The notes under the pieces: generated by a model
What the model saw: the letters and a program-made list of their open reading frames with translations, nothing else
Told to the model about the DNA's origin: nothing
The model's database searches: none
Program-made: the position numbers and the translations under genes
Part shown: positions 1 to 13,345 of the stretch, in pieces
How positions within the stretch are numbered: position 1 is the first letter of the stretch
Layout: each line of letters starts with the position of its first letter
From: an uncultured Gammaproteobacteria bacterium
GTDB taxonomy: Bacteria; Pseudomonadota; Gammaproteobacteria; Pseudomonadales; Pseudohongiellaceae
Assembly (NCBI GenBank): GCA_903876785.1
Contig: CAIRBI010000124.1
Span: 1-33,609, forward strand
Length of the DNA: 33,609 nt
Reading direction: 5' to 3'

Positions 1-82
1 CGTTGCCTTACGGCCACATTCCCTTTCGGGGTACCACCTTGCACAGCTGCAGGTTGGCGGGGCGTCAGCCCTCTCTTAATGA
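1..82 (-). ncRNA. structured small RNA, C4/P4-cI-like candidate (runs off window)
   Basis: Read on the minus strand this stretch folds into at least four successive short hairpins with tight loops: 60-71 (GGGC-UGAC-GCCC), 36-54 (ACCU/GCA stem, GCUG loop), 21-31 (CCC-CGAAA-GGG) and 5-14 (GCC-GUAA-GGC). It starts about 7 nt after a near-consensus sigma70 promoter and no good reading frame begins in it. The hairpin series and phrases such as CCCCGCCAACC and GGUACCCCGAAAGGGAAU resemble, from memory, the C4 antisense RNAs of phages P1/P7 and the cI immunity RNA of P4, which silence a downstream replication or antirepressor operon. The position beside AlpA and primase genes fits. The family assignment is an inference; the structured RNA and promoter are visible. 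The 3' end lies beyond base 1. Confidence 0.55.
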
Positions 83-88
83 GTTTTT

Positions 89-117
89 AGTATTGTCTCG
101 TTGCTGGGGAAAGTCAA
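89..117 (-). promoter_or_regulatory. sigma70 promoter of the structured RNA
   Basis: On the minus strand TTGACT (117-112), a 17-nt spacer and AATACT (94-89) form a near-consensus sigma70 promoter. Transcription should start near base 82, at the foot of the first hairpin. This is one of the best sigma70 matches in the window. Confidence 0.65.
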
Positions 118-181
118 CATCATCTTGTTGCAGCGATAACCTATAAAGAGCCTCCTGCGTATGCGATATATAGCACAAAAC

Positions 182-415
182 TCAGAAGCCCATCGACTCC
201 ATCTGCGTCAACACTTCCTCTACGGTAAGGCCCGGGTGCCTCGCCACTGTCGCCTGCGCTATTTCCAAGCGCATTTCGTCTAGCGGTGTAGAGCCTTTGC
301 TGGTCTGCTCGGAAGTTGTTGAGGAACTGGGTGCGTCGCTCAGAAACGGAGCTCCCACCTTGAGTATTCCGAGCATCGCCTGATCTAAGACTTCCGTCGG
401 GGTTGGCGTTTTCAA
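182..415 (-). CDS. small hypothetical protein of the mobile element
   Basis: A 77-aa frame with a TTG start at 415. I do not recognise the family. The first half is rich in P, S and T (residues about 25-45) and probably disordered. The second half (about 46-77) is a charged amphipathic helical stretch ending VEEVLTQMESMGF. A stop lies three codons upstream of the TTG and there is no good ribosome site at normal spacing, so the start is weak; a later ATG (residue 14) is possible. An AAGGAG lies about 22 nt upstream but serves a frame that has no normal start codon. A sigma70-like promoter is seen at 484-512. The gene lies between the iteron region and the structured RNA and reads in the same direction as the primase. 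It could be a real small element gene or chance coding. Confidence 0.4.
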   Translation of the reverse strand: MKTPTPTEVLDQAMLGILKVGAPFLSDAPSSSTTSEQTSKGSTPLDEMRLEIAQATVARHPGLTVEEVLTQMESMGF

Positions 416-483
416 ATTGTCTTACGATATTATCAAGCTCCTTTCTGTTAGCTTCTGGTTGTATTTACCACGATCGCTCTGGA

Positions 484-512
484 AATATTTTTTTGCAAAA
501 AATTTTGGTCAA
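484..512 (-). promoter_or_regulatory. sigma70-like promoter upstream of the 77-aa gene
   Basis: Minus-strand TTGACC (512-507), 17-nt spacer, AATATT (489-484). The spacer is very A/T-rich. Predicted start near 477, about 60 nt before the 77-aa frame. Confidence 0.4.
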
Positions 513-763
513 ATGTAGTTTAAAACAAAGGGGGGGTGTTTCAAGGATAACCTAAGAATGTAAAGTTTCTATCGATTTGAATGCGCCAGCGAATTTGAGA
601 GGTGTCACCTGGTAGCTGAGACTGCAGTAAAAACACTTTGGGCCGGTAATTGACTGCGTCAAAGCGGGCTATAGCTGCCGCTCACAAGACGCGGGTCGTT
701 TTGGGGGATCAGCCAATTGAGGCAGCACCCCGCAGAACAAAACACACCTAGGGTGCCTGCTAT

Positions 764-787
764 TTCCGGTAATGTTAATTACCGGAA
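764..787. repeat. perfect 10-bp inverted repeat
   Basis: TTCCGGTAAT, spacer GTTA, ATTACCGGAA: 10-bp perfect arms around 4 nt, in non-coding DNA beside the iterons. There is no T-run after it, so it is more like an operator or origin element than a terminator. Confidence 0.6.
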
Positions 788-940
788 TTAGTGATTCCAA
801 TGAAATCAATGACTTACGATTATCCCCGTCGGTTCTGGGGGTGTCCGGGTCCCTTTTGGGTCGTTTTTCGGCCAAAACGGTCGATCCGATGGGCCGGTCC
901 GGTTTTTTGGGCCGCTCGTCTCGCGAGATTGCTTTAGCCC

Positions 941-959
941 TATTTCACACAGTGAAATA
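941..959. repeat. perfect 8-bp inverted repeat next to the iterons
   Basis: TATTTCAC, ACA, GTGAAATA. Ends 17 nt before the first iteron. A 10-bp palindrome TCTCGCGAGA lies just before it at 919-928. Both are typical of protein-binding sites flanking a replication origin, though the function is inferred. Confidence 0.55.
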
Positions 960-975
960 TGTTTCAAAAGCAAAT

Positions 976-1070
976 GGCGTTAGGCGTAGGGGCGTTACGG
1001 CGTAGGGGCGTTACGGCGTTACGGCGTAGGGGCGTAGGGGCGTAGGGGCGTAGGGGCGTTAGGCGTAGGG
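976..1070. repeat. iteron array, twelve copies of GGCGT(A/T)..
   Basis: Twelve head-to-tail units starting at 976, 983, 991, 999, 1007, 1015, 1023, 1031, 1039, 1047, 1055 and 1062. There are two main kinds, GGCGTAGG and GGCGTTAC. Two units (976 and 1055) are 7-bp GGCGTTA, and the last runs on to GGCGTAGGG. The units alternate at first, then four GGCGTAGG follow in a row. The array lies about 400 bp past the 3' end of the primase/helicase gene, the arrangement of plasmid and satellite origins whose Rep or primase binds iterons. The repeats are certain; the origin role is inferred. Confidence 0.85.
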
Positions 1071-1115
1071 CCAATCTGGCCAATCTGGCCAAACCAGCCA
1101 ATCTGGCCAAATCAC
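1071..1115. repeat. second repeat set, 9-mers CCAATCTGG
   Basis: Follows the iterons without a gap. Exact CCAATCTGG at 1071-1079, 1080-1088 and 1098-1106, a variant CCAAACCAG at 1089-1097, and a partial CCAAATCA from 1107. Each unit is partly self-complementary (CCA..TGG), so the set can also fold. Confidence 0.8.
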
Positions 1116-1240
1116 CATAGCCCCTAAAATTTTTTGCAAAATTCAAACGAATTGCGCCCCACGCAAACACCAGCCGTGATTCTTTTCACCAGTAAAGGCA
1201 ATAGGCAGCGCGCACGAAGCATCTCTACCCACTGCGTTTT

Positions 1241-1455
1241 TTTCATCAGTTCCCATCAGTTCCCATCCGTTCCGTGTTAATTTCAGCCAGCGGGAACGGA
1301 AGCAGGATGGGGGGCAAAAAGAGCCCCATCCATAGATTCCATTGATTCTTTCTTAAGGGAACGCATGGATCGGGAACGCATGAAATAGCTCTCCCGCTGC
1401 ATGATGCCCCCGCCGAAAACACTTCCCTTGCGTTCTCGGTCGGAACGCATGAAAT
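1241..1455. repeat. decamer and GGAACGCATG repeats near the primase 3' end
   Basis: Three 10-mers in tandem at 1241-1270 (TTTCATCAGT, TCCCATCAGT, TCCCATCCGT). Three spaced copies of GGAACGCATG follow at 1358-1367, 1373-1382 and 1442-1451, the last two extended by AAAT. These may be further sites for the replication protein. Confidence 0.6.
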
Positions 1456-1474
1456 GCTGTTCTCTACTGTTCAT
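1283..1474 (-). CDS. possible 63-aa protein coupled to the primase gene
   Basis: An ATG frame starts inside the last codons of the primase gene (11-nt overlap), which would allow translational coupling. The product is small and basic, with the motif FMRS twice (about residues 8 and 32) plus a further MRS at about 37; all three are encoded by the GGAACGCATG DNA repeats. I do not recognise it. The repeats alone could keep the frame open, so it may not be a gene. Confidence 0.25.
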   Translation of the reverse strand: MNSREQHFMRSDRERKGSVFGGGIMQRESYFMRSRSMRSLKKESMESMDGALFAPHPASVPAG

Positions 1475-3770
1475 CTTGTGTTTCTTCCTTGGCAGCTTTC
1501 GGTTGTTTTTTCCATGTCTCTGGGATATCCAACAATTCCGGCGGTAACGTCCTAACGGCCAGATACTGCTCCCGCTGCCCCTTGTTCAGTCCAACAAGGA
1601 ACTTATTGCGCTTGGGGTGCGTCCTCATGGCCTGCGGCACGCTGACTTCAACGGCCCAGCTACTTTCGATAACGTCCCGAATCAGATCCTTGGTAGCCTT
1701 TGCGTTACCGCCGATCTCCTTGGCAACTTCAGTGCGGTTCAATGGCTCGCCCTCATCGCAAGCCTTATTTATCAATTCGATGATTTCCTGTTTCTTGTCG
1801 GCGTCTTGTTCGCGCTTGGCTGTATCCTCCGCTTCGGCATTCATCTCTCCACGTGTCTTGCATTGTGGACTGGCAACTGCCCACCTCAAGGTCAATTCCT
1901 CTTGTTCATCAAAATCATTGAGAGCGTTTTTTATGCTGCTGTAAGACTCAATGCGAAGTTCATCCCAGCTCGCCTCGAATCGGGTCTTGCCTCGCACCAG
2001 CCAGCGGGTATCGTCCTTTTCTTTGACCAAATACAGCACTTGATGCGCGTCTGCTTCAAAGGCACTCGCTCCCCTGAATGTCGGCATTCCAGATTTCGCT
2101 CCATCGCGTGACAGATCTGCCTTGCTAACGTGACCAACGATCCAAGTAGGCAGTCCTGCAAAGCGCTGCTTGATCGCTGCAATCATCTTGCTGGCTTCGG
2201 CGTTGTCGTTATCGTTTTCCAGTTCAAACACTGCGGCCTTGGTGTCGAACACAATCAGCGGCAGAAGAGCAACTTCGCGCCCTGTTACGGTGGTGACCGT
2301 GCGGGTGTAATGCTCCCGATACCACGGCCCTGCGAGAACAACGGCATCAGCAGGCATGCGGGCTGCCTCGACAACGTGCAGTCGCTCCCCGACACTGACG
2401 GGCGTCTCTCCGATGGTTGGTGCATAGCCTGCAATGATTCGCTCAACCTGGTGGCTATCCTCAGTGATATAAACAACATGCCGCCACTGTCTTGGCGCAA
2501 GCGCATAGTCGTTCTCATGCAATCCAGCGGCTGCCATGCCCAACGGAAGTATTGCGGTTGTTTTACCAACTCCATGCGCTCCGGCAATGATGACAACCCC
2601 CGCGCCGATGAAGTGCGGCAAGATCCAGGTCGGTGGTTTCATGCTGTTACCGGGATCTAGGACTTTGGTTAGCGGGTGCTGCCATTCCTGCTTTGGCTTA
2701 TCCTCTTTGCCTACATGCTCGGTAGGTTCGGGGACCTCTGCGAAGCTCTTAACGACTGACTCAATTTCGGCCTGTCGCTGCGCTTCCTCAGCCGCTGCCA
2801 GATCGCCATTGTGGTCAAGCTGAACGTGTGCAGCCCACGGGTCAAACGTGCCGTGCAGGGGATCGCCCGCATGATCTGACTGCCAAAGATCATCCTTGCC
2901 GGGTATGAGTCGAATGCCGGGCGCACCAGTCGCGCCGGGGTGACTGTAACGCTGCTCTGTGACGTGCCACTTGTAGCCGTGCCGCTCTGCTATTGGCTCA
3001 AACTTGTGAGTGCGGTTATAGCTTGAGCGGCAGGTTGACTGGAATGCCAACTTCTTACCGCTGCCCATCGGTGGGCGATGCTGTGCCTCTTTACCATTAA
3101 CCTTAAATCCGGCAGCAGCGATAGCCTCACAGAATTTAAGATCATACTCGCGCAGTGCGTCATCATTGGTAGATAAATACAGCCAAAATTTTGCAAAGCT
3201 GTCCGGCAACAGAGGGGCATTATCAAAGCGGTTTTCGTTGGCGTATTGTTGGGTGCATAACTCTCCGGTTGTCTTATCCACATACACCACGCCGGGAACG
3301 CAGTCTTGAAGGTTCTCCGCTTTGGCACGTAACTCCAGAACAGTGATGCTTTTGCCCTCACCATCATAGACTTTAAATGTCAGCCAACGCGCCATCTCCA
3401 TCTCATCAGTCGCGAACGCCGAACGCCCCCCGCTGCCGGGGCGGGTTGAGCTAGTGCGAACACCAGCAGCCAGCAGGTCGTCTAGATTAAAGCCCCACGC
3501 TTTAAGTCCTATTCGTGCCATGGCTACATGGTCGGGGTCGATTGAGCATAACCCGTTTGCAGCAAGCGGTATTCCGTAGCCGGTAGCCTTGGGGTCGATA
3601 CTCGTTGCAGGGTTCTTGTTCCAATTTAGTCCGATGGGTTGTTTTGTGTAAGGGTGCAATTTGACCAGCATCATGCCGCTATTCAATAGGCGCTGTGCTT
3701 CGCTAAGGTCTGGTTGTAAATAGCTTTCCACTCTGCCCTCAGCATATAAGATATAAGGTAATGCACTCAT
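1464..3770 (-). CDS. primase-polymerase / RepA-type hexameric helicase (satellite replication protein)
   Basis: A 768-aa two-part replication protein. Residues about 25-165 look like a PrimPol-type primase: DPD at 78-80 as the metal-binding motif, STRPGSGGRSAF at 108-119, and ELRA at 146-149. Residues about 375-610 are a RecA-fold helicase of the RepA/AAA_25 kind: Walker A GAHGVGKT at 397-404, Walker B LIVFD ending at D509, and WIVGHVSK at 543-550 with the sensor His. The C-terminus (about 665-768) is charged and may hold a winged helix for origin binding. It should prime and unwind the element's own origin in the cytoplasm, as P4 alpha does with a different domain order. The start is supported by GGGGAGG about 8 nt upstream and by an ATGA overlap with the preceding gene. 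The iterons at 976-1115 are a plausible target. Confidence 0.85.
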   Translation of the reverse strand: MSALPYILYAEGRVESYLQPDLSEAQRLLNSGMMLVKLHPYTKQPIGLNWNKNPATSIDPKATGYGIPLAANGLCSIDPDHVAMARIGLKAWGFNLDDLLAAGVRTSSTRPGSGGRSAFATDEMEMARWLTFKVYDGEGKSITVLELRAKAENLQDCVPGVVYVDKTTGELCTQQYANENRFDNAPLLPDSFAKFWLYLSTNDDALREYDLKFCEAIAAAGFKVNGKEAQHRPPMGSGKKLAFQSTCRSSYNRTHKFEPIAERHGYKWHVTEQRYSHPGATGAPGIRLIPGKDDLWQSDHAGDPLHGTFDPWAAHVQLDHNGDLAAAEEAQRQAEIESVVKSFAEVPEPTEHVGKEDKPKQEWQHPLTKVLDPGNSMKPPTWILPHFIGAGVVIIAGAHGVGKTTAILPLGMAAAGLHENDYALAPRQWRHVVYITEDSHQVERIIAGYAPTIGETPVSVGERLHVVEAARMPADAVVLAGPWYREHYTRTVTTVTGREVALLPLIVFDTKAAVFELENDNDNAEASKMIAAIKQRFAGLPTWIVGHVSKADLSRDGAKSGMPTFRGASAFEADAHQVLYLVKEKDDTRWLVRGKTRFEASWDELRIESYSSIKNALNDFDEQEELTLRWAVASPQCKTRGEMNAEAEDTAKREQDADKKQEIIELINKACDEGEPLNRTEVAKEIGGNAKATKDLIRDVIESSWAVEVSVPQAMRTHPKRNKFLVGLNKGQREQYLAVRTLPPELLDIPETWKKQPKAAKEETQDEQ

Positions 3771-3997
3771 GGCCGCGCCTCCCCAGCATCCAGAATCGGG
3801 GCAAATTTGCCGTTCTTTGAATTATCCAGCGCGTTAAGCCCCAGAGCATTAGTAGGGCAAGGCTTTGGTCTGACCGGCCAAAAAGGGCATGATTTTGAGG
3901 TAGAGGCGGCGGTTTGTTGTCTGCATGTCCCATTGCCGTTAATCGGATCGAATGAGCATTCTTTACACTTATAATTGATTGCGCGTCGAAGGCTCAT
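3767..3997 (-). CDS. small zinc-binding-like phage/satellite protein
   Basis: A 76-aa protein with cysteines at 11, 14, 25 and 37 (CKECSFDP ... TCRQQ ... SCPFWPVRP). Short proteins with this CxxC...C..CP(L/F)(W/Y)PVRP pattern recur beside primase genes in phages and integrated elements, and their function is unknown. Its stop overlaps the primase start as ATGA (3767-3770) and its own ATG overlaps the stop of the 59-aa gene upstream in the same way, so the three are probably translated as a coupled unit. An alternative 64-aa frame on the same strand (3739-3933) lacks such features. A role in replication or its regulation is inferred only from position. Confidence 0.75.
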   Translation of the reverse strand: MSLRRAINYKCKECSFDPINGNGTCRQQTAASTSKSCPFWPVRPKPCPTNALGLNALDNSKNGKFAPILDAGEARP

Positions 3998-4173
3998 CGG
4001 CTAGCCCTCCCTTGCAGTTTTTCCATGCCTGAGTGGGTTGGCTGGTATAGGCCATAAGATGACTGGTTGTCGCAATTGCTCAAATACTTGAGGAATTTGC
4101 AACCCACACACAGGCCGCCTTTACTGGCTTCCAACGGGTCGGTTAAGGAAACTTTCAGCACATTAGAATTCAT
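3994..4173 (-). CDS. 59-aa cysteine-containing protein of the alpA-primase operon
   Basis: The ATG at 4173 is preceded by GAGGAG at good spacing; that ribosome site overlaps the alpA stop codon. The protein runs MNSNVLKVSLTDP to GRASR and has C22, C25 and C34 within LCVGCKFLKYLSNC, a likely metal-binding or Arc-like small fold. I do not recognise a family. Its stop forms ATGA with the next gene's start (3994-3997). It lies 12 nt after alpA. The two flanking coupled starts and the strong ribosome site make it likely real despite its length. Confidence 0.65.
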   Translation of the reverse strand: MNSNVLKVSLTDPLEASKGGLCVGCKFLKYLSNCDNQSSYGLYQPTHSGMEKLQGRASR

Positions 4174-4185
4174 CGCTGCTGCTCC

Positions 4186-4392
4186 TCAATCGGCTGCTTT
4201 ACTTCGCTGAAGCATGCGCTCTGCCTGCCAATTCGCGATAGCCGCAGAATCCCAAGCTACTGCTCGGATGCCCAGTTGGATAGGCGCCGGAAATTCACCA
4301 CGACGGATTGCCTCGTAAATCCAACTACGAGACATGCCAGTGGCAGCCTTGACTTGCTTGAGACGAAGAAAGGATCGGAGTTGCTCAGCCAT
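4186..4392 (-). CDS. alpA: AlpA-family transcriptional regulator
   Basis: About 68 aa forming a MerR/excisionase-like winged helix: FLRLKQVKAATGMSRSWIY (helix-turn-helix), then RRGEFPAPIQLGIRAVAW and a final helix ending in WQAERML. This is the AlpA (phage CP4-57 / P4 Vis) pattern; members activate or repress the integrase gene or act as excisionases. The ATG at 4392 is preferred because AAGGA lies 7 nt upstream of it; the ATG at 4398 is almost touching that site. It heads the alpA-59aa-76aa-primase run. The GGGGTAC boxes before the integrase gene are candidate targets. Family assignment is firm; the target is inferred. Confidence 0.9.
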   Translation of the reverse strand: MAEQLRSFLRLKQVKAATGMSRSWIYEAIRRGEFPAPIQLGIRAVAWDSAAIANWQAERMLQRSKAAD

Positions 4393-4405
4393 GTTCATTT
4401 CCTTA

Positions 4406-4448
4406 CGAACAAGGCCGGGCGTTCCGCACTGCTAGGTGGCCTTGTCCG
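4406..4448. promoter_or_regulatory. inverted repeat in the alpA leader
   Basis: Arms CGAACAAGGCC (4406-4416) and GGCCTTGTCCG (4438-4448) match at 10 of 11 positions around 21 nt. They end 2 nt from the alpA ribosome site. They could fold in the alpA mRNA leader and control translation, or bind a repressor. No T-run follows. Confidence 0.45.
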
Positions 4449-4587
4449 TACAATTAAGGATTGCAGCGGATCACCTGGAGAGAAGCTTGCACGGGCAAAA
4501 AATAAGGCGGAAGACTGAAATATTTGCTTTAATTAGTTAAAATCAATGGGTTATTTGGGCAATAAAAGGCATTTGGGTACATCGCGT

Positions 4588-5619
4588 CTACCAATCTTTT
4601 CTTATCCTGCGGACAACCGTTTCTTGTGTCATTCCGAGCTCTTTCGCCAGCAATTTGGCAACCTTGTCCCGCGTCACACGCAAGCCTTTTGCCTTTTGAT
4701 CTTCCGCAATCTGATTTGCTCGTTGTTGCAATACCGGGTCATGATTAAGGTGCCCCTCGGGTTTGGCAGCGGGTGCGCTGTTTAATGTCTGCTCAAAAAC
4801 CTTGAGTGCTTCGGTGCGAACTACAATGACCGCATCTTCCGGTAGTGCACCCGCCGGGTAATAGGTTGCTAGCCTCGCCTTTCCTTCATCCATAAATTTC
4901 TTTCGATTCTCCCCGGCCCGATGCGGTAGCGCTTCATCGTCCGCAGCCCAATCCTTTAGAGGGTCGAGCACCATCATTTGAGCCGAATGATGTTTAAGAT
5001 CTTCCAATTCAGCCTTTAAACCCGACTGGAGTTTTTTGTTGTCGCGCCGCTTTTGAATCTGGCATATCTCCCCGTCAAGTCCTTCTACGAAAGCGCCAGC
5101 AAAAAAACCGCCCGGTTCTATACTTGGGCCGCCAGTCAAATCATGGTATTTGCTTTCAACATGTCGAAGCTCATTGCCAATCATCGGCAAGTCCCACACC
5201 CCCTCCAGCACCGTCAGGTCATCGGATAGTACCAAGAACCGCTCGTCGTCAATGATCAAGTTGAGCAGTCTTCGGCAGTACTTTCCCCGCTCACTCTCAC
5301 AAATCTCATCGTAAAGTGCTTGAAGTTTTGGAGGGTTGGTGCGGCACTGATCGGTTAACCCTGGCACGTCCTGCTCCATTTGTTCGTCCCCAGTAAAGTT
5401 CGGTTCTGGAGCCAGCCTCCAATCCGTTTCATCCCAAGTAACGACCTTTCCGCATCGGCCTTTCGTATGATTCACGAACTGGATCGACAGCCGTAAACGT
5501 CCATCCAGTCCAAGCCGCAGGACGTCGGCATTGGTCACATCCTCACCTAGTACAGTAGAAAGGTGCCTGGCGGCATCATCGATTGTCAGCCATTCTTTAA
5601 GAGAAAATAATTTGCCCAA
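4588..5619 (-). CDS. hypothetical protein with terminal helix-turn-helix-like segments
   Basis: A 343-aa protein of unknown function. The N-terminus (about 8-45, EWLTIDDAARHLSTVLGED...) looks like a helix-turn-helix of the kind used to read sequence or build a complex. The middle holds a long charged region (about 180-215, likely coiled). The C-terminus (about 315-343, TRDKVAKLLAKELGMTQETV) again resembles a helix-turn-helix. Proteins of this form are common in integrase-linked islands without known role. The start is TTG at 5619, with GAAGGA 8 nt upstream; an earlier in-frame ATG was not seen. It lies about 190 nt ahead of alpA on the same strand, so the two may be separately controlled. A regulatory role is a guess. 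Confidence 0.7.
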   Translation of the reverse strand: MGKLFSLKEWLTIDDAARHLSTVLGEDVTNADVLRLGLDGRLRLSIQFVNHTKGRCGKVVTWDETDWRLAPEPNFTGDEQMEQDVPGLTDQCRTNPPKLQALYDEICESERGKYCRRLLNLIIDDERFLVLSDDLTVLEGVWDLPMIGNELRHVESKYHDLTGGPSIEPGGFFAGAFVEGLDGEICQIQKRRDNKKLQSGLKAELEDLKHHSAQMMVLDPLKDWAADDEALPHRAGENRKKFMDEGKARLATYYPAGALPEDAVIVVRTEALKVFEQTLNSAPAAKPEGHLNHDPVLQQRANQIAEDQKAKGLRVTRDKVAKLLAKELGMTQETVVRRIRKDW

Positions 5620-5624
5620 GTTTC

Positions 5625-5663
5625 CTATCCTTCATTTTTTGTTGAACCAGCAAGTCGCACCAT
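5625..5663 (-). CDS. possible 12-aa leader peptide
   Basis: An ATG with AGGAG 7 nt upstream opens a 12-codon frame (MVRLAGSTKNEG) ending at TAG 5 nt before the TTG start of the 343-aa protein. Its end overlaps that gene's ribosome site, so it could couple or modulate translation. Short and possibly chance. Confidence 0.25.
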   Translation of the reverse strand: MVRLAGSTKNEG

Positions 5664-5924
5664 GCGCTCGCTCCTGAGGTTAAATGGCGGTTTGTGTTTG
5701 GATTACTTCGGACGCTATCGCACAGTTGAGTGCTTTTATAGTCTACGAATTCCTCAAGGGGAAATCATGGCCTGTGCCACGACCGCCACGCAGACAGTCC
5801 CTAACGAACCAGAATTCAAGGCATCTATGCGCATTGGTTAAGTCAACGAGCACACTTCAATCATCAACATGATTGGGGTGATGATCCGCTGCTCACCAGC
5901 CATCAGCCAAGACTAAAAAGAAAA

Positions 5925-6170
5925 ATGTTAACTCTTGCCATCCTTACCCCCGGTCTTGCACTAACCGGCACCGGGACGGTTATTGCGGTGGTGCCGATTG
6001 CAGACGGTGCGGTGCAAGTCATGTATCGCGCGTCCGATGGCGGCGTCGAGGAGCGCCTGTTAAATCGGGCTGATGAGTCCTCTCTTCCGATTTTTGTCAT
6101 CAAGTGCCTCCATGATTTACAAGAACGGCGATCCAGTATTGCTGAGGGGGGGGCCAAGTTGTGCAAGTAG
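5925..6170 (+). pseudogene. N-terminal fragment of a SNF2-family helicase (remnant)
   Basis: The first about 50 residues (ILTPGLALTGTGTVIAVV, DGAVQVMYRASDGG, EERLLNRADESSL) resemble the start of the large SNF2/DUF3883-type helicases found in defence and restriction islands, where this beta-rich lead-in precedes the helicase core. After ADESSL the similarity stops, and the frame ends after 81 aa where a protein of roughly a thousand residues would be expected. It is therefore a truncated remnant, or a chance look-alike. It lies on the opposite strand to the rest of the element, beside the integrase 3' end. A run of eight G (6146-6153) falls in its tail. The family call is from memory of the pattern. 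The rest of 5664-6257 holds nothing I can identify. Confidence 0.4.
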
Positions 6171-6257
6171 GACAGGGAAGGGTGCAGCATGATTGGAAAA
6201 GCAAGCCTCCCATACAGACAGGTTCATTGCGATTTATCCCCAAAACAGCTCAATCGA

Positions 6258-7445
6258 TTAGGCTTTTTCGCGTAGTTCGTCCAGATAATCCCCCCACCTC
6301 TGCATCATCTCCTTCCTTTGCTTGAGGTGCCTGGTGCGGTTGTACGCCCGCCCATTGGCATCCCTCACCGCATGCGCCAGCTGTTGCTCAATCCACTCCA
6401 CAGGCACCTCCAGCACCTCGTCCAGCAGCGTTCTGGCCATGGCGCGAAAACCGTGGGGCGTCATCTGCTCGTTGGTGTACCCGATATTGCGCAGCGCTGT
6501 GCGCACGCCGTTCTCGCTGAGTGGGCGGCTGGCACCACGTGCACTCGGGAAAATGTAGAGGCTGCGGGCAGTAATGGGCTGCAGGTCTTTCAAAATCTCA
6601 ATGGCCTGCCGGCACAGAGGAATGATGTGAGGCTGGCCCATCTTCATCTTGTGGCCGGGGATCTCGATGTGACTTTCCTCCCAGTTCACTTCGCTCCACT
6701 CCAGGTGGCGCAGTTCGCCAGGCCGGCAGAAGAGCAGAGGGGACAGCTTCATAGCGGCATGGACCACAGGGGTGCCGTTATATTGATCGATTGAGACCAG
6801 AAGCTTTGCCACTTCCTTTGGGGTGGTAATTGAGGCGAAGTGATTGGTTTTGGTTGTTTTCAGGGCGCCTTTAAGATCGGCGCTGATGTCGCGCTCAACA
6901 CGTCCGGTGGCTACTGCATAGCGGTAGATCAGGCCGACATACTGCATCGCCCGGTGCGCTGTCTCAATGGCGCCACGATCTTCAACACGGCGCACTGTTT
7001 TCAGTAGATCAACTGGAGTGATTTCGTCTATTGGACGGCTCCCCAGCCATGGAAAAAGATCTTTGTGCAGCAGCTTGAGCAGGCGCTTGTCATTGCCTTC
7101 CGACGTCTCGCCGCGCCTACTTAACCACTCGTTAGCAACGACCTCGAAGCTATTGGAACTGGCTGCCTGCTTGGCTGCTTTGACGGCGCGTTTGTTGTCC
7201 ATGGGATCGATGCCATTGGCCAGTAGGGCGCGAGCGGCGTCACGCTTGCCTCTGGCGCTTGTAAGTGTTGTGTCGGGATACACGCCAAGGGCCATTAATT
7301 TTTCTTTGTTGTCGATACGGTATTTTAGGCGCCAGTATTTGCCGCCAGACGGCTTGACTAGTAAGTGCAGCCCTTTTTCGTCGGAAAGCTTGTAGTTTTT
7401 GTCAGTGGGTTTGGCGGTTCTGACTTTCAAATCGGAGAGTGACAT
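6258..7445 (-). CDS. int: tyrosine site-specific integrase, P4/DUF4102 family
   Basis: A 395-aa integrase from the ATG at 7445 (MSLSDLKVRTAKPTDKNYKL), the usual start of this family; a longer frame to 7559 adds a proline-rich tail encoded by the GGGGTAC operator DNA and is unlikely. Residues about 1-90 are the arm-binding DUF4102 domain, about 100-190 the core-binding SAM-like domain, and about 205-385 the catalytic domain with R241 (CRPGEL), H331 and R334 (HGFR), H358 (LAH) and nucleophile Y368 (AYNRT). It recombines the element with the 3' end of the tRNA gene that lies about 175 nt upstream on the same strand, the standard layout for tRNA-targeting elements. All catalytic residues are present, so it looks functional. 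Confidence 0.93.
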   Translation of the reverse strand: MSLSDLKVRTAKPTDKNYKLSDEKGLHLLVKPSGGKYWRLKYRIDNKEKLMALGVYPDTTLTSARGKRDAARALLANGIDPMDNKRAVKAAKQAASSNSFEVVANEWLSRRGETSEGNDKRLLKLLHKDLFPWLGSRPIDEITPVDLLKTVRRVEDRGAIETAHRAMQYVGLIYRYAVATGRVERDISADLKGALKTTKTNHFASITTPKEVAKLLVSIDQYNGTPVVHAAMKLSPLLFCRPGELRHLEWSEVNWEESHIEIPGHKMKMGQPHIIPLCRQAIEILKDLQPITARSLYIFPSARGASRPLSENGVRTALRNIGYTNEQMTPHGFRAMARTLLDEVLEVPVEWIEQQLAHAVRDANGRAYNRTRHLKQRKEMMQRWGDYLDELREKA

Positions 7446-7458
7446 AGGGACCCCAGTT

Positions 7459-7529
7459 GGGGGTACTTCCCTTGGGGTGTTCAGGTACCCCCAGGGAAAT
7501 ACCCCCGGACATGTCGGATTTAGGGGTAC
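7459..7529. promoter_or_regulatory. four GGGGTA(C) boxes upstream of int (operator cluster)
   Basis: GGGGGTAC at 7459-7466, the inverted form GTACCCCC at 7485-7492, ATACCCCC at 7499-7506, and GGGGTAC at 7523-7529. The first pair and the second pair each face in opposite directions. The cluster lies between the tRNA and the integrase start. Likely binding sites for AlpA or the integrase arm domain (inference). Confidence 0.5.
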
Positions 7530-7619
7530 ATAGTAGGACGCCACTGGACGAACTATCAAGCATTACTTAATGAATTTATTGAGGTTTTGGAAGGCTTCGG
7601 ACGTTGCTGGAAGAGTGTT

Positions 7620-7696
7620 TGGTGCCCCGGGCAGGATTTGAACCTGCGACCTGTCCCTTAGGAGGGGACCGCGCTATCCAGCTGTGCCACCGGAGC
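7620..7696 (-). tRNA. tRNA-Arg (anticodon CCU)
   Basis: A 77-nt cloverleaf on the minus strand: acceptor GCTCCGG pairs with CCGGGGC (one T-G pair), the T arm contains GGTTCAAATCC, and the anticodon stem GTCCC/GGGAC encloses the loop CTCCTAA, giving anticodon CCU. The CCA end is encoded (7622-7620). The gene is intact although an element is inserted at its 3' end, as expected when the element restores the tRNA tail. The matching att copy at the other end of the element is not in the window. Confidence 0.97.
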
Positions 7697-7743
7697 ATGG
7701 GTGGAGGTACTGCGAAAAGTCTGGCTGTCTGGACAGCGCGCGG

Positions 7744-7749
7744 AGTATA
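7744..7749 (-). promoter_or_regulatory. -10 element of the tRNA-Arg promoter
   Basis: Minus-strand TGCTATACT includes a TATACT -10, followed by a GC-rich CCGCGCGC discriminator typical of stable-RNA promoters under stringent control. No good -35 is visible. Start expected near 7737, about 40 nt before the tRNA. Confidence 0.5.
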
Positions 7750-7780
7750 GCACGGCAAATTGGGCGGGGAGGAGGGGAGT

Positions 7781-7847
7781 TGTGGGAGCGGGCCTGCCCG
7801 CGATTAATCTCAACGCGCGTTCGATCGCGAGCAGGCCCGCTCCCACA
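7781..7847. repeat. REP inverted pair (Pseudomonas-type)
   Basis: Two 24-bp arms, 7781-7804 and 7824-7847, are inverted copies with one mismatch; they start TGTGGGAGCGGGCCTG and end CGCGAT, with 19 nt between. The same family occurs again at 9960-10025. Such elements are spread by REP-associated tyrosine transposases; none is in the window. It lies between the tRNA promoter and the end of the AP2-like gene. Confidence 0.88.
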
Positions 7848-7885
7848 GGTCAGGTTTGCACAGAGTAAGGTTGTACAGGGTAAGG

Positions 7886-8323
7886 TCAGGCGCTGATCTT
7901 GTTGTTTTCCACTTCGGCACGGCGGCGCTGGATGGCCATGGTGCGGGCTTTCTTGTCGCCGTACTTGTTGATGGAGAAGTAGGCATTGCGCTGGCGGCGC
8001 ACGCCGTCGGTGTTTTCCTGCCAGGTAGCAACCCAGGCGTGATCGCTTTCGGAGTAGCTGACGCCGATTTCACCGGAGGAATTCAATGGGGATACTTTGC
8101 GCGGGCTGAATTTGGTGAAGGGCCAGTTATCGCCGTAGATCTTCTTGCCTTCTTCGTCGCGCTTCTTCATCGCGGCCTTGATGGCCTTGTCCTTGCCGCC
8201 GTATTTCTTGAAGGGGAAGGATTCCTGGAAGCTTTTGTTGTCGTATTTGATACGCACCCAAGCGCAATTGGTGCCGCGGGACTCAATGATGCTGATGTGA
8301 TGAAGCGGATCCAGTTTCTTCAC
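7886..8323 (-). CDS. AP2-like domain protein, two tandem repeats
   Basis: A 145-aa basic protein. Residues about 8-55 and about 80-140 each have the plan of an AP2 DNA-binding module: three short strands ending in an aromatic (CAWVRIKYDNKSFQESFPFKKYG; IGVSYSESDHAWVATWQENT...), then a lysine/arginine-rich helix (DKAIKAAMKKRDEE; DKKARTMAIQRRRAE). Bacterial AP2 domains are otherwise known mainly in phage homing nucleases and integrases, but no nuclease motif is seen here, so a free-standing DNA-binding protein is likely. The start is GTG at 8323, with AAGGAGAGAG just upstream, one of the strongest ribosome sites in the window. It follows the 79-aa gene by 47 nt, probably in one operon. Targets are unknown. 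Confidence 0.65.
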   Translation of the reverse strand: MKKLDPLHHISIIESRGTNCAWVRIKYDNKSFQESFPFKKYGGKDKAIKAAMKKRDEEGKKIYGDNWPFTKFSPRKVSPLNSSGEIGVSYSESDHAWVATWQENTDGVRRQRNAYFSINKYGDKKARTMAIQRRRAEVENNKISA

Positions 8324-8370
8324 AAAACTCTCTCCTTGGATTCAAAATCACTATTAACGTATTGATGCGC

Positions 8371-8610
8371 TTACAGGCGCTCACCCATGTGACAGGCCAT
8401 ATGCTGAATCACGCCCGGCTTTTGACAGGCGATCTTCGCAATCTTGTATTCGTAATCTTTCGCTGCCGGGTCCAGGCCTACTGCTTCGCCGATGGCCGCA
8501 CTCATGTCAGCCTCAGCAGCCTGCCGGGTCAGATAGGGCCCGGAGATGTTCACCTGCAAAGTCGGTTCATTGGGCGCCGTAGCGACAATGTAAAAATTTT
8601 CTGCGTTCAT
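8371..8610 (-). CDS. small hypothetical protein
   Basis: A 79-aa frame from an ATG at 8610. It reads as a compact alpha/beta protein: strand NFYIVATAPNEPTLQVNISGPY, a helix with RQAAEADMSAAIGEAVGL, a lysine-rich segment, and a tail with cysteines at about 62 and 73 and HMACHMGERL. No signal peptide or membrane segment. I do not recognise a family. Same strand as the AP2-like gene and 47 nt before it. A weak AGAAG precedes the start. Confidence 0.55.
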   Translation of the reverse strand: MNAENFYIVATAPNEPTLQVNISGPYLTRQAAEADMSAAIGEAVGLDPAAKDYEYKIAKIACQKPGVIQHMACHMGERL

Positions 8611-8888
8611 TGCTTCTAATGTGCTGATCGCGGCAGGATTCAGGGCTTGTGCCGTCGATCAGATAATTCTCCTTCGGAAATGAGAACGGGAATGTGCCTG
8701 TTTTCTTACCCGTTGGTCCGGAAATATCTCCTTGACATGGCGCACATTATCCTGCTTTCAGCTGGATGTTGATAGCCCTAAATAGTGAAGAAAGCGCCGG
8801 AAGCTGTAATTTGGCAGGCACTGGCATAGAATCGGCGCCGCGCAGGTCTTTTTGGCAAGCCCCCCATTTCGTCATTTGCGAGTGCTCC

Positions 8889-9878
8889 ATGCTTGATACA
8901 CGTCCACTTCTGATTCAAACCGATGCCGGCCCCACAGTGACTTCGGATTTTCCCCGGTTGCGGCGCAGTGCGGTGACGACTCTGCAGGTGAATCTGGGCT
9001 ATCTGTGCAACCTCAGCTGTACCCACTGCCACGTCAATGCCGGGCCGAAACGCACGGAATTGATGGATGCCGCGACGGTGGAGCTGGTGCTGGACTATCT
9101 GCGCCTGCATAACATCCGCACACTGGATATGACTGGCGGTGCCCCCGAGATGAACCCGCATTTCCGCCATCTGGTGACGCATGCGCGTCTGCTGGGGGTT
9201 GAGGTCATCGATCGCTGCAACCTGACTATTCTGGGCGAGCCGGGCTATGAGGACATGGCGGAGTTTCTGGCGCAGCAGCAGGTGGTGATCACAGCCTCGC
9301 TGCCCTGTTATCTGGAGCAGAATGTCGAGAAGCAGCGCGGCAAGGGCGTCTATGGCGAGAGTATCCGCGCGCTCAAGCGCCTCAACGCGCTAGGCTATGG
9401 GCGCGATCCGGCGCTGCAGCTGAATCTCGTCTACAACCCCGACGGCCTGAGCCTGCCTCCCGCCCAGCAGGGGCTGGAGGCGGCCTACAAGCGCGAGCTG
9501 CTCGCCACCCATGGCATCGTGTTCAATCAGCTGTTCACGATTACCAACATGCCCATCAGCCGCTTCGGCGGGATGTTGCTGGCCAAGGGGCTGTATCAGG
9601 AATACATGGATATCCTGCGCCACAATTACTCGGCGGCGAATCTGGCGACGGTGATGTGCAGGACGCTGATCAGCGTCGACTATCAGGGCTTCGTCTACGA
9701 TTGCGACTTCAACCAGATGCTGCAATTGCCGCTGATCGTCAGCGACCGCGCGCCGCGTCCGCACTTGGCCGATATCCTGCGGCAGGATCTTGCCGGCAAC
9801 CCCATCGCCACGGCCGACCACTGCTACGGCTGCACGGCCGGGCAGGGCAGCAGCTGTGGCGGCGCGCTCAGTGACTGA
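8889..9878 (+). CDS. arsS: ArsS-like radical SAM protein (rSAM/selenodomain, TIGR04167-type)
   Basis: A 329-aa radical SAM enzyme. The [4Fe-4S]-binding motif is CNLSCTHC (C40, C44, C47), followed by the DMTGGAPEMNPHF stretch of the SAM site. The C-terminus has the family's second cysteine set: YDCDFNQM, then HCYGCTAGQGSSCGGAL. Members of this family (arsenosugar biosynthesis ArsS) make 5'-deoxyadenosyl-arsenic sugars from dimethylarsenite; others in the family are of unknown use. Some relatives carry selenocysteine here; this one has cysteines. The ATG at 8889 is chosen because the conserved protein starts there; an extension to 8766 has no family support. The next two genes are the usual partners. 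Cysteine placement is seen; the arsenic role is from the family. Confidence 0.85.
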   Translation: MLDTRPLLIQTDAGPTVTSDFPRLRRSAVTTLQVNLGYLCNLSCTHCHVNAGPKRTELMDAATVELVLDYLRLHNIRTLDMTGGAPEMNPHFRHLVTHARLLGVEVIDRCNLTILGEPGYEDMAEFLAQQQVVITASLPCYLEQNVEKQRGKGVYGESIRALKRLNALGYGRDPALQLNLVYNPDGLSLPPAQQGLEAAYKRELLATHGIVFNQLFTITNMPISRFGGMLLAKGLYQEYMDILRHNYSAANLATVMCRTLISVDYQGFVYDCDFNQMLQLPLIVSDRAPRPHLADILRQDLAGNPIATADHCYGCTAGQGSSCGGALSD

Positions 9879-10734
9879 TTCCCGCAAACGCATCAGCATC
9901 ATCATTCCCGTGTTGAACGAAGAGGACGCGCTGCGGCGTCATCTGCCACTACTGCAGGCTGTGGGAGCGGGCCTTGCCCGCGATGCTTTTCCAGCGCTAG
10001 ATCGCGGGCAAGGCCCGCTCCCACAAGGCGATTTGCAGGCACAGGGCGATTTGCAGGCACAAGGCGATTTGCAGGCACAAGGCAATTTGCAAGCACAGGG
10101 CGATTCGCAGACGCAGGTGCGCCCAGAGATCATCGTCGTCGATGGCGGCAGCCGTGACGGGAGCCGTGCAGCCTGCGAGGGCCTTGTGGACCACTTCCTC
10201 ACCAGCGCGCCGGGCCGTGCGCGCCAGATGAATGCCGGGGCGGCGGTGGCCAATGGCGAGATTCTGCTGTTCCTGCATATCGATACGCTGCTTCCCGATG
10301 ACGCGCTGACGCTGCTTCAGGAGCATCTCTCCCGTGTCACTGCCTTCTGGGGCCGCTTCGACGTTCGTCTGAGCGGCACGCGTCCGGCGTTCCGCTGCAT
10401 CGAGTACTTCATGAATCTGCGCTCCCGCGTCTCCGGGGTGGCCACTGGCGATCAGGCGATTTTCGTGCGTCGCGCGGTGTTCGAGCGGGTCGGTGGTTTT
10501 CCCGATCTGCCGCTGATGGAGGATGTGGCGTTGAGCAAGACGCTGCGTCGCCTCGCGCCTCCCGTCTGCCTGCGCGCCAGAGTCGTCACCTCCAGCCGAC
10601 GCTGGGAGCAACATGGCGTGGCGCGCACCGTACTGCTCATGTGGTGGTTGCGCATGTTGTATGTACTGGGAGTTGCCCCTGCCGTGTTGCATGCAAGGTA
10701 CTATAAAAAAGACTATAAAAAGAAAATTAACTAA
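9871..10734 (+). CDS. GT-A glycosyltransferase, TIGR04283 type, with a REP/VNTR insertion
   Basis: A family-2 glycosyltransferase linked to rSAM/selenodomain loci. ISIIIPVLNEEDAL (8-21) and EIIVVDGGSRDGS (about 86-98) are the two nucleotide-binding strands, FLHIDTLLP the DxD-equivalent, and EDVALSK the acceptor-side acidic motif. These two strands are normally a short loop apart. Here about 52 residues (31-82) are inserted, encoded by a perfect REP pair (9960-10025) and five 18-bp repeats (10026-10115), 156 bp in all, so the frame is kept. The insert reads VGAGLARDAF..., then QGDLQA repeated. GTG at 9871 overlaps the arsS stop by 8 nt and gives about 287 aa; a farther ATG at 9790 would lie deep in arsS. 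The lysine-rich AT-rich tail is unusual. Whether the enzyme still folds is unknown. Confidence 0.82.
   Translation: MTDSRKRISIIIPVLNEEDALRRHLPLLQAVGAGLARDAFPALDRGQGPLPQGDLQAQGDLQAQGDLQAQGNLQAQGDSQTQVRPEIIVVDGGSRDGSRAACEGLVDHFLTSAPGRARQMNAGAAVANGEILLFLHIDTLLPDDALTLLQEHLSRVTAFWGRFDVRLSGTRPAFRCIEYFMNLRSRVSGVATGDQAIFVRRAVFERVGGFPDLPLMEDVALSKTLRRLAPPVCLRARVVTSSRRWEQHGVARTVLLMWWLRMLYVLGVAPAVLHARYYKKDYKKKIN
9960..10025. repeat. perfect REP inverted pair inside a coding region
   Basis: Arms 9960-9984 and 10001-10025 are exact 25-bp inverted copies (TGTGGGAGCGGGCCTTGCC... outward), 16 nt apart. Same family as 7781-7847. REP pairs normally sit between genes; this one lies within the glycosyltransferase reading frame. 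Confidence 0.92.
10026..10115. repeat. five tandem 18-bp repeats, in frame
   Basis: Units at 10026, 10044, 10062, 10080 and 10098, consensus RGGCGATTTGCAGGCACA, with the fourth and fifth copies diverged. They encode a six-residue repeat QGDLQA. They start exactly where the REP arm ends. Copy number may vary between strains. Confidence 0.92.
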
Positions 10735-13285: not shown

Positions 13286-13345
13286 GTAAAACCCTGTCAA
13301 CAAACGTTGGTTCTTTGACGCATTGCCTGAAACCGTGATTTGGCT

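Follow-up and report, generated by a model that had tools for sequence, protein, structure and literature searches.

Comparison with phage sequences shows that the two tandem arrays lying beside the primase-helicase gene of this contig form the length-variable middle of a block of ~410 bp (759–1171, plus strand), which is carried by at least two phage contigs in the vicinity of their terminase genes. The window (the whole stretch of DNA analysed, 33,609 nucleotides, being the entire contig C124 of a fragmented genome and ending at base 1) places these arrays between a probable replication origin, built from other repeats, and a palindrome whose arms match the chromosomal dif site of the host family. 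Our leading reading, which we hold at slightly less than even confidence, is that the arrays are the expandable middle of a phage terminase-proximal cis region that would act in packaging together with the host Xer recombinase. If this holds, the origin is relocated, the double array becomes part of a phage terminase-type region, in an element where no terminase gene is visible, and that region is tied to the host dif site.

Array A (976–1069, plus strand) comprises twelve GGCGT units with an 8-bp period, starting at 976, 983, 991, 999, 1007, 1015, 1023, 1031, 1039, 1047, 1055, and 1062 (a spacing of 7, then 8 nine times, then 7); every unit lies on the plus strand, with zero copies of ACGCC in window positions 1–1463, and the variants GGCGTAGG and GGCGTTAC/GGCGTTA alternate irregularly. 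It passes into array B (1069–1113, plus strand), four to five GGCCAATCT-type 9-mers that are exact at 1069 and 1078 and carry one mismatch at 1096, two at 1087, and three at 1105. Downstream is an A/T-rich stretch (40% G+C in 1100–1159) with the tract AAAATTTTTTGCAAAATT (motif 2, 1126–1143, plus strand), of which a second, inverted copy lies at 489–506 on the minus strand. The initial annotation had described exactly this succession of twelve GGCGT units, GGCCAATCT-type 9-mers, and A/T tract beside a primase-helicase gene, all of which is borne out; it made no mention of the inverted tract, of the dif-type palindrome (761–790), or of a further repeat family, here called C (1244–1451). A pattern of three GGCGT units matches seven times in the window against none in 100 dinucleotide shuffles, and a two-unit pattern (at most one mismatch) finds this locus alone in the window's own genome (nine forward matches, zero reverse; the backward-read control gave 0 and 3). 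The array region itself is repeat-rich to a degree that none of 200 shuffles reaches, and Rfam gave no match within the arrays.

The block was matched end to end (window ~759–1180) in phage contigs L204 and L259, ~1 kb from the gene for the terminase large subunit (TerL; at 3003–4253 for a site at 1990 in L204, and at 3171–1921 for a site at 4138 in L259). Its order there is palindrome, flank, motif 1, GTTTCAAAAGCAAA, GGCGT units, GGCCAAA, A/T tract, and AACGAATTGCGC.CCAC.CAAACACC, with L204 carrying GGCGTTACGGCGTTAGGCGTAGGGGCC; the window keeps the same motif order. Motif 1 (CTTTAGCCCTATTTCACACAGT, 932–953, plus strand) stands 168 bp from the palindrome in the window, 167 bp in both L204 and L259, and 190 bp in L165. 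A further copy of the block, in family genome G042, is preserved as two pieces that are 84 and 82% identical. Within this shared frame the number of GGCGT copies runs from 12 in the window through 4 in L204, 3 in G042, and 2 in L259 to 0 in L165, which keeps motif 1 and an A/T tract with no array of either kind; array B is likewise absent from G042 and is reduced to a single CCAATCTGGCCAAAA in L259. A constant frame with a differing copy number identifies the arrays as a variable stretch, here expanded, within a phage region close to the terminase genes. The initial annotation had taken them for a satellite replication origin and had proposed a comparison of repeat number in related elements; this comparison tells against it, the block of L165 being array-free.

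The association with terminase genes extends well beyond these contigs. A scan of viral contigs returned the palindrome in at least 120, although equal centres may mean kinship, so that the 120 are not independent. A TerL-type gene lies within 4 kb of the palindrome in 98 of the 120, and where both terminase clusters are present the palindrome falls between them in 66 of 68 contigs, at a median of 303 bp before TerL; its commonest neighbours are TerL (phrog_38), a weak match to the small subunit TerS (phrog_51), and a large protein with no PHROG match. The consensus of the flank over the 120 sites is GCTAAGTgcTTGATTTtAAacGAATCACTA, and most of these sites are similar to the flank of the element (TAGTGATTCCAATGAAATCAATGACTTA, 789–816). 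Of the 120 contigs, 51 have motif 2 no more than 1 kb from the palindrome (at most two mismatches) and six have motif 1 (at most three mismatches), with a control of 0 in both cases. Among complete-sequence contigs (52 of the 80 listed), three end within 30 bp of the palindrome, where 0.46 would be expected. In phage DSL-LC04 both motifs precede the annotated TerL gene (motif 1 with one mismatch, motif 2 just upstream), which is followed by a gene annotated as PcfJ-like; palindrome arms were absent in the 13 kb examined.

That arrays are a regular part of the phage site is not supported, tandem arrays lying on the flank side of 12 of 73 sites vs. 12 of 73 on the other side; three or more GGCGT units reading away from the site within 60–450 bp occur in only 5 of the 120 contigs. 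A blind scan of viral contigs with the three-unit GGCGT pattern gave five matches (L009–L013), of which four (L010–L013, two of them near-duplicates) show terminase-like genes by eye; at first set aside, these lend weak support to the phage-block reading. No primase of the present family was recognized by eye in L009–L013. Relative to the phages the window is rearranged, in that the primase gene and origin stand where TerL would follow. Small Cys-rich or HNH-like frames begin (by eye) soon after the A/T tract in L161, L165, L204, and L259, and owing to their position just past the block, motifs 1 and 2 may also act as a promoter leader.

The initial annotation had placed the origin of replication beside the primase-helicase gene, which is likely, and had assigned the arrays as its iterons, a part of the claim that the comparison does not support. 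Using the N-terminal primase profile we collected 26 genome loci with relatives of the gene, and 23 of these have a tandem array in the first 350 bp past the primase stop codon, in some cases with inverted partners (L121, three GTGTGTTGG and three CCTTACACA; L139, three TGTCGGAAA and three TTTCCGACA). A 6-mer test of the 350 bp after the stop codon (28 regions, namely the window, the 26 loci, and phage ACF1, with many loci coming from related Pseudomonas and hence not independent) found 16 regions repeat-rich at a level reached by at most 1 of 200 shuffles and 12 that were not, vs. 0 of 28 significant among control regions 700 bp further on. In the window this place (0–350 bp past the stop) is occupied by family C and not by arrays A and B, which lie at +351 to +488 from the stop codon. 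Family C consists of three CATCAGTTCC/CATCCGTTCC 10-mers (1244–1273, plus strand) and of CATGCGTTCC at 1358–1367, 1373–1382, and 1442–1451 (minus strand), both sets being predicted as probable Rep iterons; eight copies at no more than two mismatches fall within 1114–1463 (shuffle mean 0.40, maximum 3 in 1000), and when the region's best 10-mer family was taken as a more stringent measure, 3 of 300 shuffles reached it. The GGAACTGATG array recurs in phage contig L163, where it lies between a primase match and the palindrome. Since the relatives are repeat-rich in this 350 bp and family C lies there, we place the origin next to the gene but with repeats other than those first named, its probable site being the CATGCGTTCC/GGAACTGATG repeats that immediately follow the 3′ end of the primase-helicase gene. 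The palindrome is no general companion of the primase, a link that we tried and discarded: it is absent from all 26 genome relatives and from all 80 viral primase loci, and just 7 of the 120 palindrome contigs have a primase match. A search of the 26 loci for a Pseudomonas-type dif pattern gave four-mismatch matches only.

The element carrying these features reads leftward from a tRNA-Arg(CCT) gene (7620–7696, minus strand) that serves as its integration site, with all genes on the minus strand: a tyrosine integrase (6258–7559; Arm-DNA-bind_3, Phage_int_M, and Phage_integrase domains), a 343-aa protein with no family found (4588–5619), an AlpA regulator (4186–4398; Pfam PF05930, E 1.2e-18), and the 768-aa primase-helicase (1464–3770; Pfam AAA_25 at residues 375–551). 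Synteny with genome G039 starts at 7619, which is the 3′ end of the tRNA. The primase frame is intact, and its product looks replicative, the N-terminal half sharing up to 63 and 66% identity with Onishia and Marinobacter proteins and 43% with the annotated DNA primase of phage ACF1. A single-sequence structure model of the protein reached a pLDDT of 36.7 and one built from six sequences 55.3 (of good quality only over residues ~20–335), with no fold match in the PDB (best E 0.12), no PDB sequence match, and no plasmid relative found; defence models gave no match.

The initial annotation had called the element a satellite, and here the integrase and AlpA fit, but the contig ends at base 1 and contains a scrap of a phage gene (177–470, minus strand; 54% over 103 columns, E 8e-21). 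The scrap corresponds to residues 1147–1245 of 2016 in a protein of L157, encoded by the large gene located beyond TerL in phages, and its presence keeps a decayed prophage in play alongside a satellite; our best reading is an element of the int-alpA-primase type, of either origin. No second tRNA fragment that could mark the other attachment site was found within the window. Among the 137 family genomes a primase relative occurs, besides the window's own, only in G042, where the gene is disrupted and a 1,175-aa frame (by eye, a putative TonB-type receptor) comes after it. In G079, from another genus, the same tRNA-Arg(CCT) is accompanied by an integrase fragment (residues 1–116, 70% identical) and AlpA; tblastn found no primase there, with a possible trace by eye. 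Elsewhere in the window, a SAM-I/IV riboswitch on the minus strand (1–87) is cut by the contig end, bases 1–82 are 98% identical to contig C264 of G037 (more than the 75% identity to G037 over 7619–8629), and REP-like GGGAGCGGGCCTGCCCGCG palindromes lie at 7781–7847 and 9960–10025, with many more copies in genomes of the genus.

The palindrome (761–790) has 9-bp arms identical to those of the chromosomal dif of the host family but the centre TGTTAA, not TAAAGA. Its pattern is present in 103 of the 137 family genomes (backward-read control 0), with more than one copy in 9 of the 103, and the family site is a perfect palindrome, TTCCGGTAA-TAAAGA-TTACCGGAA. We infer that this is the dif site from its position and from the polarity of surrounding octamers: it sits at 1,677,507 of 3,345,119 in the single-contig genome G034, and across three contigs of 280–360 kb the octamer GGGCAGGG, which scores higher than any other octamer present 60 times or more, points toward it 62 times and away twice. 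GC skew turns near the palindrome in G047 and G036, and less clearly in G040. The centre is TAAAGA at the chromosomal site of the window's own genome and TAATAA in G036 and G044. A tyrosine recombinase of 401–404 aa, 67–88% identical among six genomes, is encoded within ~7 kb of dif in all six (for example, dif at 9805 and the gene at 13292–14497 of L104), and shares 50% identity with a Legionella adelaidensis protein and 39% with Pseudomonas megaplasmid proteins; a search for XerD alone found none above the curated cut-off in five family genomes (4 of 14 controls pass). The family would thus have a perfectly palindromic and probably single-recombinase dif within the Pseudomonadales, outside the Legionellales in which this type is described. 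The flank beside the palindrome was found in 3 of the 137 genomes (the window's own genome, G042, and G079), in the element copies only, none of which has the usual TAAAGA centre; scores for the flank at 15 chromosomal dif sites were low, with the exception of one at 14 of 23.

Taken with the phage copies, these features lead us to propose that the element would excise through its own integrase, after which the primase-helicase would bind the CATGCGTTCC/GGAACTGATG repeats and replicate the circle; the phage-type block would act in cis to pass this DNA to the packaging machinery of a helper phage, with the host Xer recombinase acting at the palindrome so that monomers are maintained or produced. 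The probable role of the arrays is as multimeric sites of protein binding in packaging or resolution, the tandem 8- and 9-mers being envisaged as docking sites for a protein that forms rings or filaments, such as a small terminase subunit. On the model of satellites whose packaging site is that of their helper, we rank a packaging function as the most likely for the block; of the readings in which the phage block is accepted, a pure resolution site comes second. All three elements carry palindrome and flank, and tblastn found no terminase gene in the window or in the stretches fetched from G042 and G079; a packaging site alone would not, however, account for arms equal to those of chromosomal dif. 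The suggestion in the initial annotation that two repeat types imply two functions (initiation and handling) was a fair guess, although the second function looks like packaging or recombination.

That the arrays belong to the origin after all, with the A/T tract between them and family C, has perhaps one chance in a handful of being correct, and is the least improbable of the alternatives. The layout is suggestive, with family C on one side, the A/T tract (1114–1150) in the middle, and the repeat-rich array region on the other, and the 8–9 bp periods are near the 9–11-bp periods of the repeats in many relatives. The paired sets of L121 and L139 are, however, one motif in opposite orientations that stays within ~350 bp of the stop, whereas the window arrays have a different motif that starts only at +351; moreover, L165 has the block without an array, and phages have it near terminase genes. 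A somewhat less likely explanation casts the block as the accessory sequence of an Xer resolution site similar to cer and psi, on which the arrays would bind a topology-setting protein while multimers are resolved at the palindrome. Arms identical to chromosomal dif speak for this, as do a one-sided flank that is absent at chromosomal dif and the lack of TAAAGA in all 120 viral contigs listed and all three elements, since sites recombining only with their own kind would be expected to have non-chromosomal centres; against it, TAATAA, which is the chromosomal centre in G036 and G044, occurs at 2 of the 120 viral sites, a pure resolution site would not be expected between TerS and TerL, and there is no sign that these phages live as plasmids.

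We consider it improbable that the arrays are a neutral repeat expansion in a decaying prophage, despite their erratic copy number, the phage-gene fragment in the window, and the broken primase of G042; the window primase frame is intact, and outside the arrays the block is conserved in two genomes and in no fewer than two phage contigs. Least probable by some way is that the palindrome is an attachment site of the IMEX kind, serving to integrate phage or element into chromosomal dif. There is a precedent in LME-1 of Legionella, which pairs a dif mimic with the single recombinase XerL (PMC9765430), and, as noted above, the host recombinase has a 50% identical counterpart in Legionella; the central 6 bp are nevertheless TGTTAA vs. 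TCTTTA at the chromosomal dif of the same genome, so that the core does not match the host site, and the element is inserted at a tRNA and encodes an integrase of its own. A reading of the arrays as a KOPS cluster was also examined and judged unlikely: the GCGTAGGG unit resembles GGGNAGGG, but at three chromosomal dif sites it points 7 times toward and 7 away. At the same sites GGCGTTAC points 17 times toward and 14 away, vs. 62 and 2 for GGGCAGGG, and GGCGTAGG leans to dif (19 toward, 6 away); window positions 1–7620 contain one GGGNAGGG.

Set against known systems, the packaging reading draws on parts of known kinds, namely a PICI-like gene order, a phage terminase region, and a dif mimic. 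In Gram-negative PICIs, too, a site-specific integrase adjoins the attachment site at one end of the element, followed in one direction by an AlpA regulator and a primase plus replication initiator that are sometimes fused (here the AAA_25 protein, for which no fold match was found), and their published layout has repeats directly 3′ of the replication gene and an A/T tract between repeat sets. Family C occupies that directly 3′ position in the window, whereas the arrays beyond the A/T tract are other motifs and part of the phage block; the window also differs in showing no second attachment site and in containing a phage-gene fragment. Satellite P4, which lacks a terminase of its own, shares its cos site with P2. 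The element resembles that pair in carrying, with no terminase, a cis site of the kind that stands beside the terminase genes of related phages, as a cos or pac site would; in the element this is a candidate packaging site. DSL-LC04 and its metagenomic relatives share motifs 1 and 2 upstream of TerL, yet DSL-LC04 differs in the missing palindrome arms, and its PcfJ-like protein gives no match to the window fragment.

Filamentous phages, islands, and plasmids are already known to use Xer recombination. Tailed phages of a large clade, together with the integrated elements that depend on them, may hold a copy of dif with a non-usual centre in the gap between TerS and TerL, where Xer would take part in monomerization or packaging and the arrays would be a docking module; we regard this wider proposal as possible but doubtful. 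If true, the dif-arm palindrome between the terminase genes (66 viral contigs) would be a new use of Xer recombination. Neither the placement of dif arms between the terminase genes of tailed phages nor this combination of parts turned up in searches of the open-licence literature (PMC9765430, PMC6092414, PMC10111431, PMC5357621, and PMC11389934). The single-recombinase dif of Legionella XerL, with its IMEX LME-1 (PMC9765430), is alike in its perfectly palindromic dif, ~400-aa tyrosine recombinase, and mobile element with a dif mimic, and unlike in that the window's centre departs from chromosomal dif and its element integrates at a tRNA through its own integrase. The plasmid sites cer and psi place a host-recombinase core on a replicating circle (PMC5357621), as predicted here; the window adds a one-sided conserved flank, and its palindrome type stands beside terminase genes in phages.

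Palindromes of this type were also seen in other settings. Pseudomonas plasmid pNY11382-IMP (L142) encodes a related recombinase and has a perfect palindrome at 7351–7378, 103 bp after the gene, which may be the plasmid's own resolution site. G128 has two canonical dif copies near contig ends, and the stretches fetched around extra dif copies in G018, G049, G089, and G136 gave no primase, integrase, or terminase match. In G136, two dif-arm palindromes with different centres lie 9.5 kb apart (L144, 7054 and 16530), more than 1 Mb from the canonical copy, and are possibly a further mobile element. In G047, a dif-arm palindrome lies ~320 bp after a tRNA-Leu-like stretch (read by eye and not reported by ARAGORN) with 9-mer repeats between the two, and this region (L108, 9574–9980) is perhaps the end of a vanished element.
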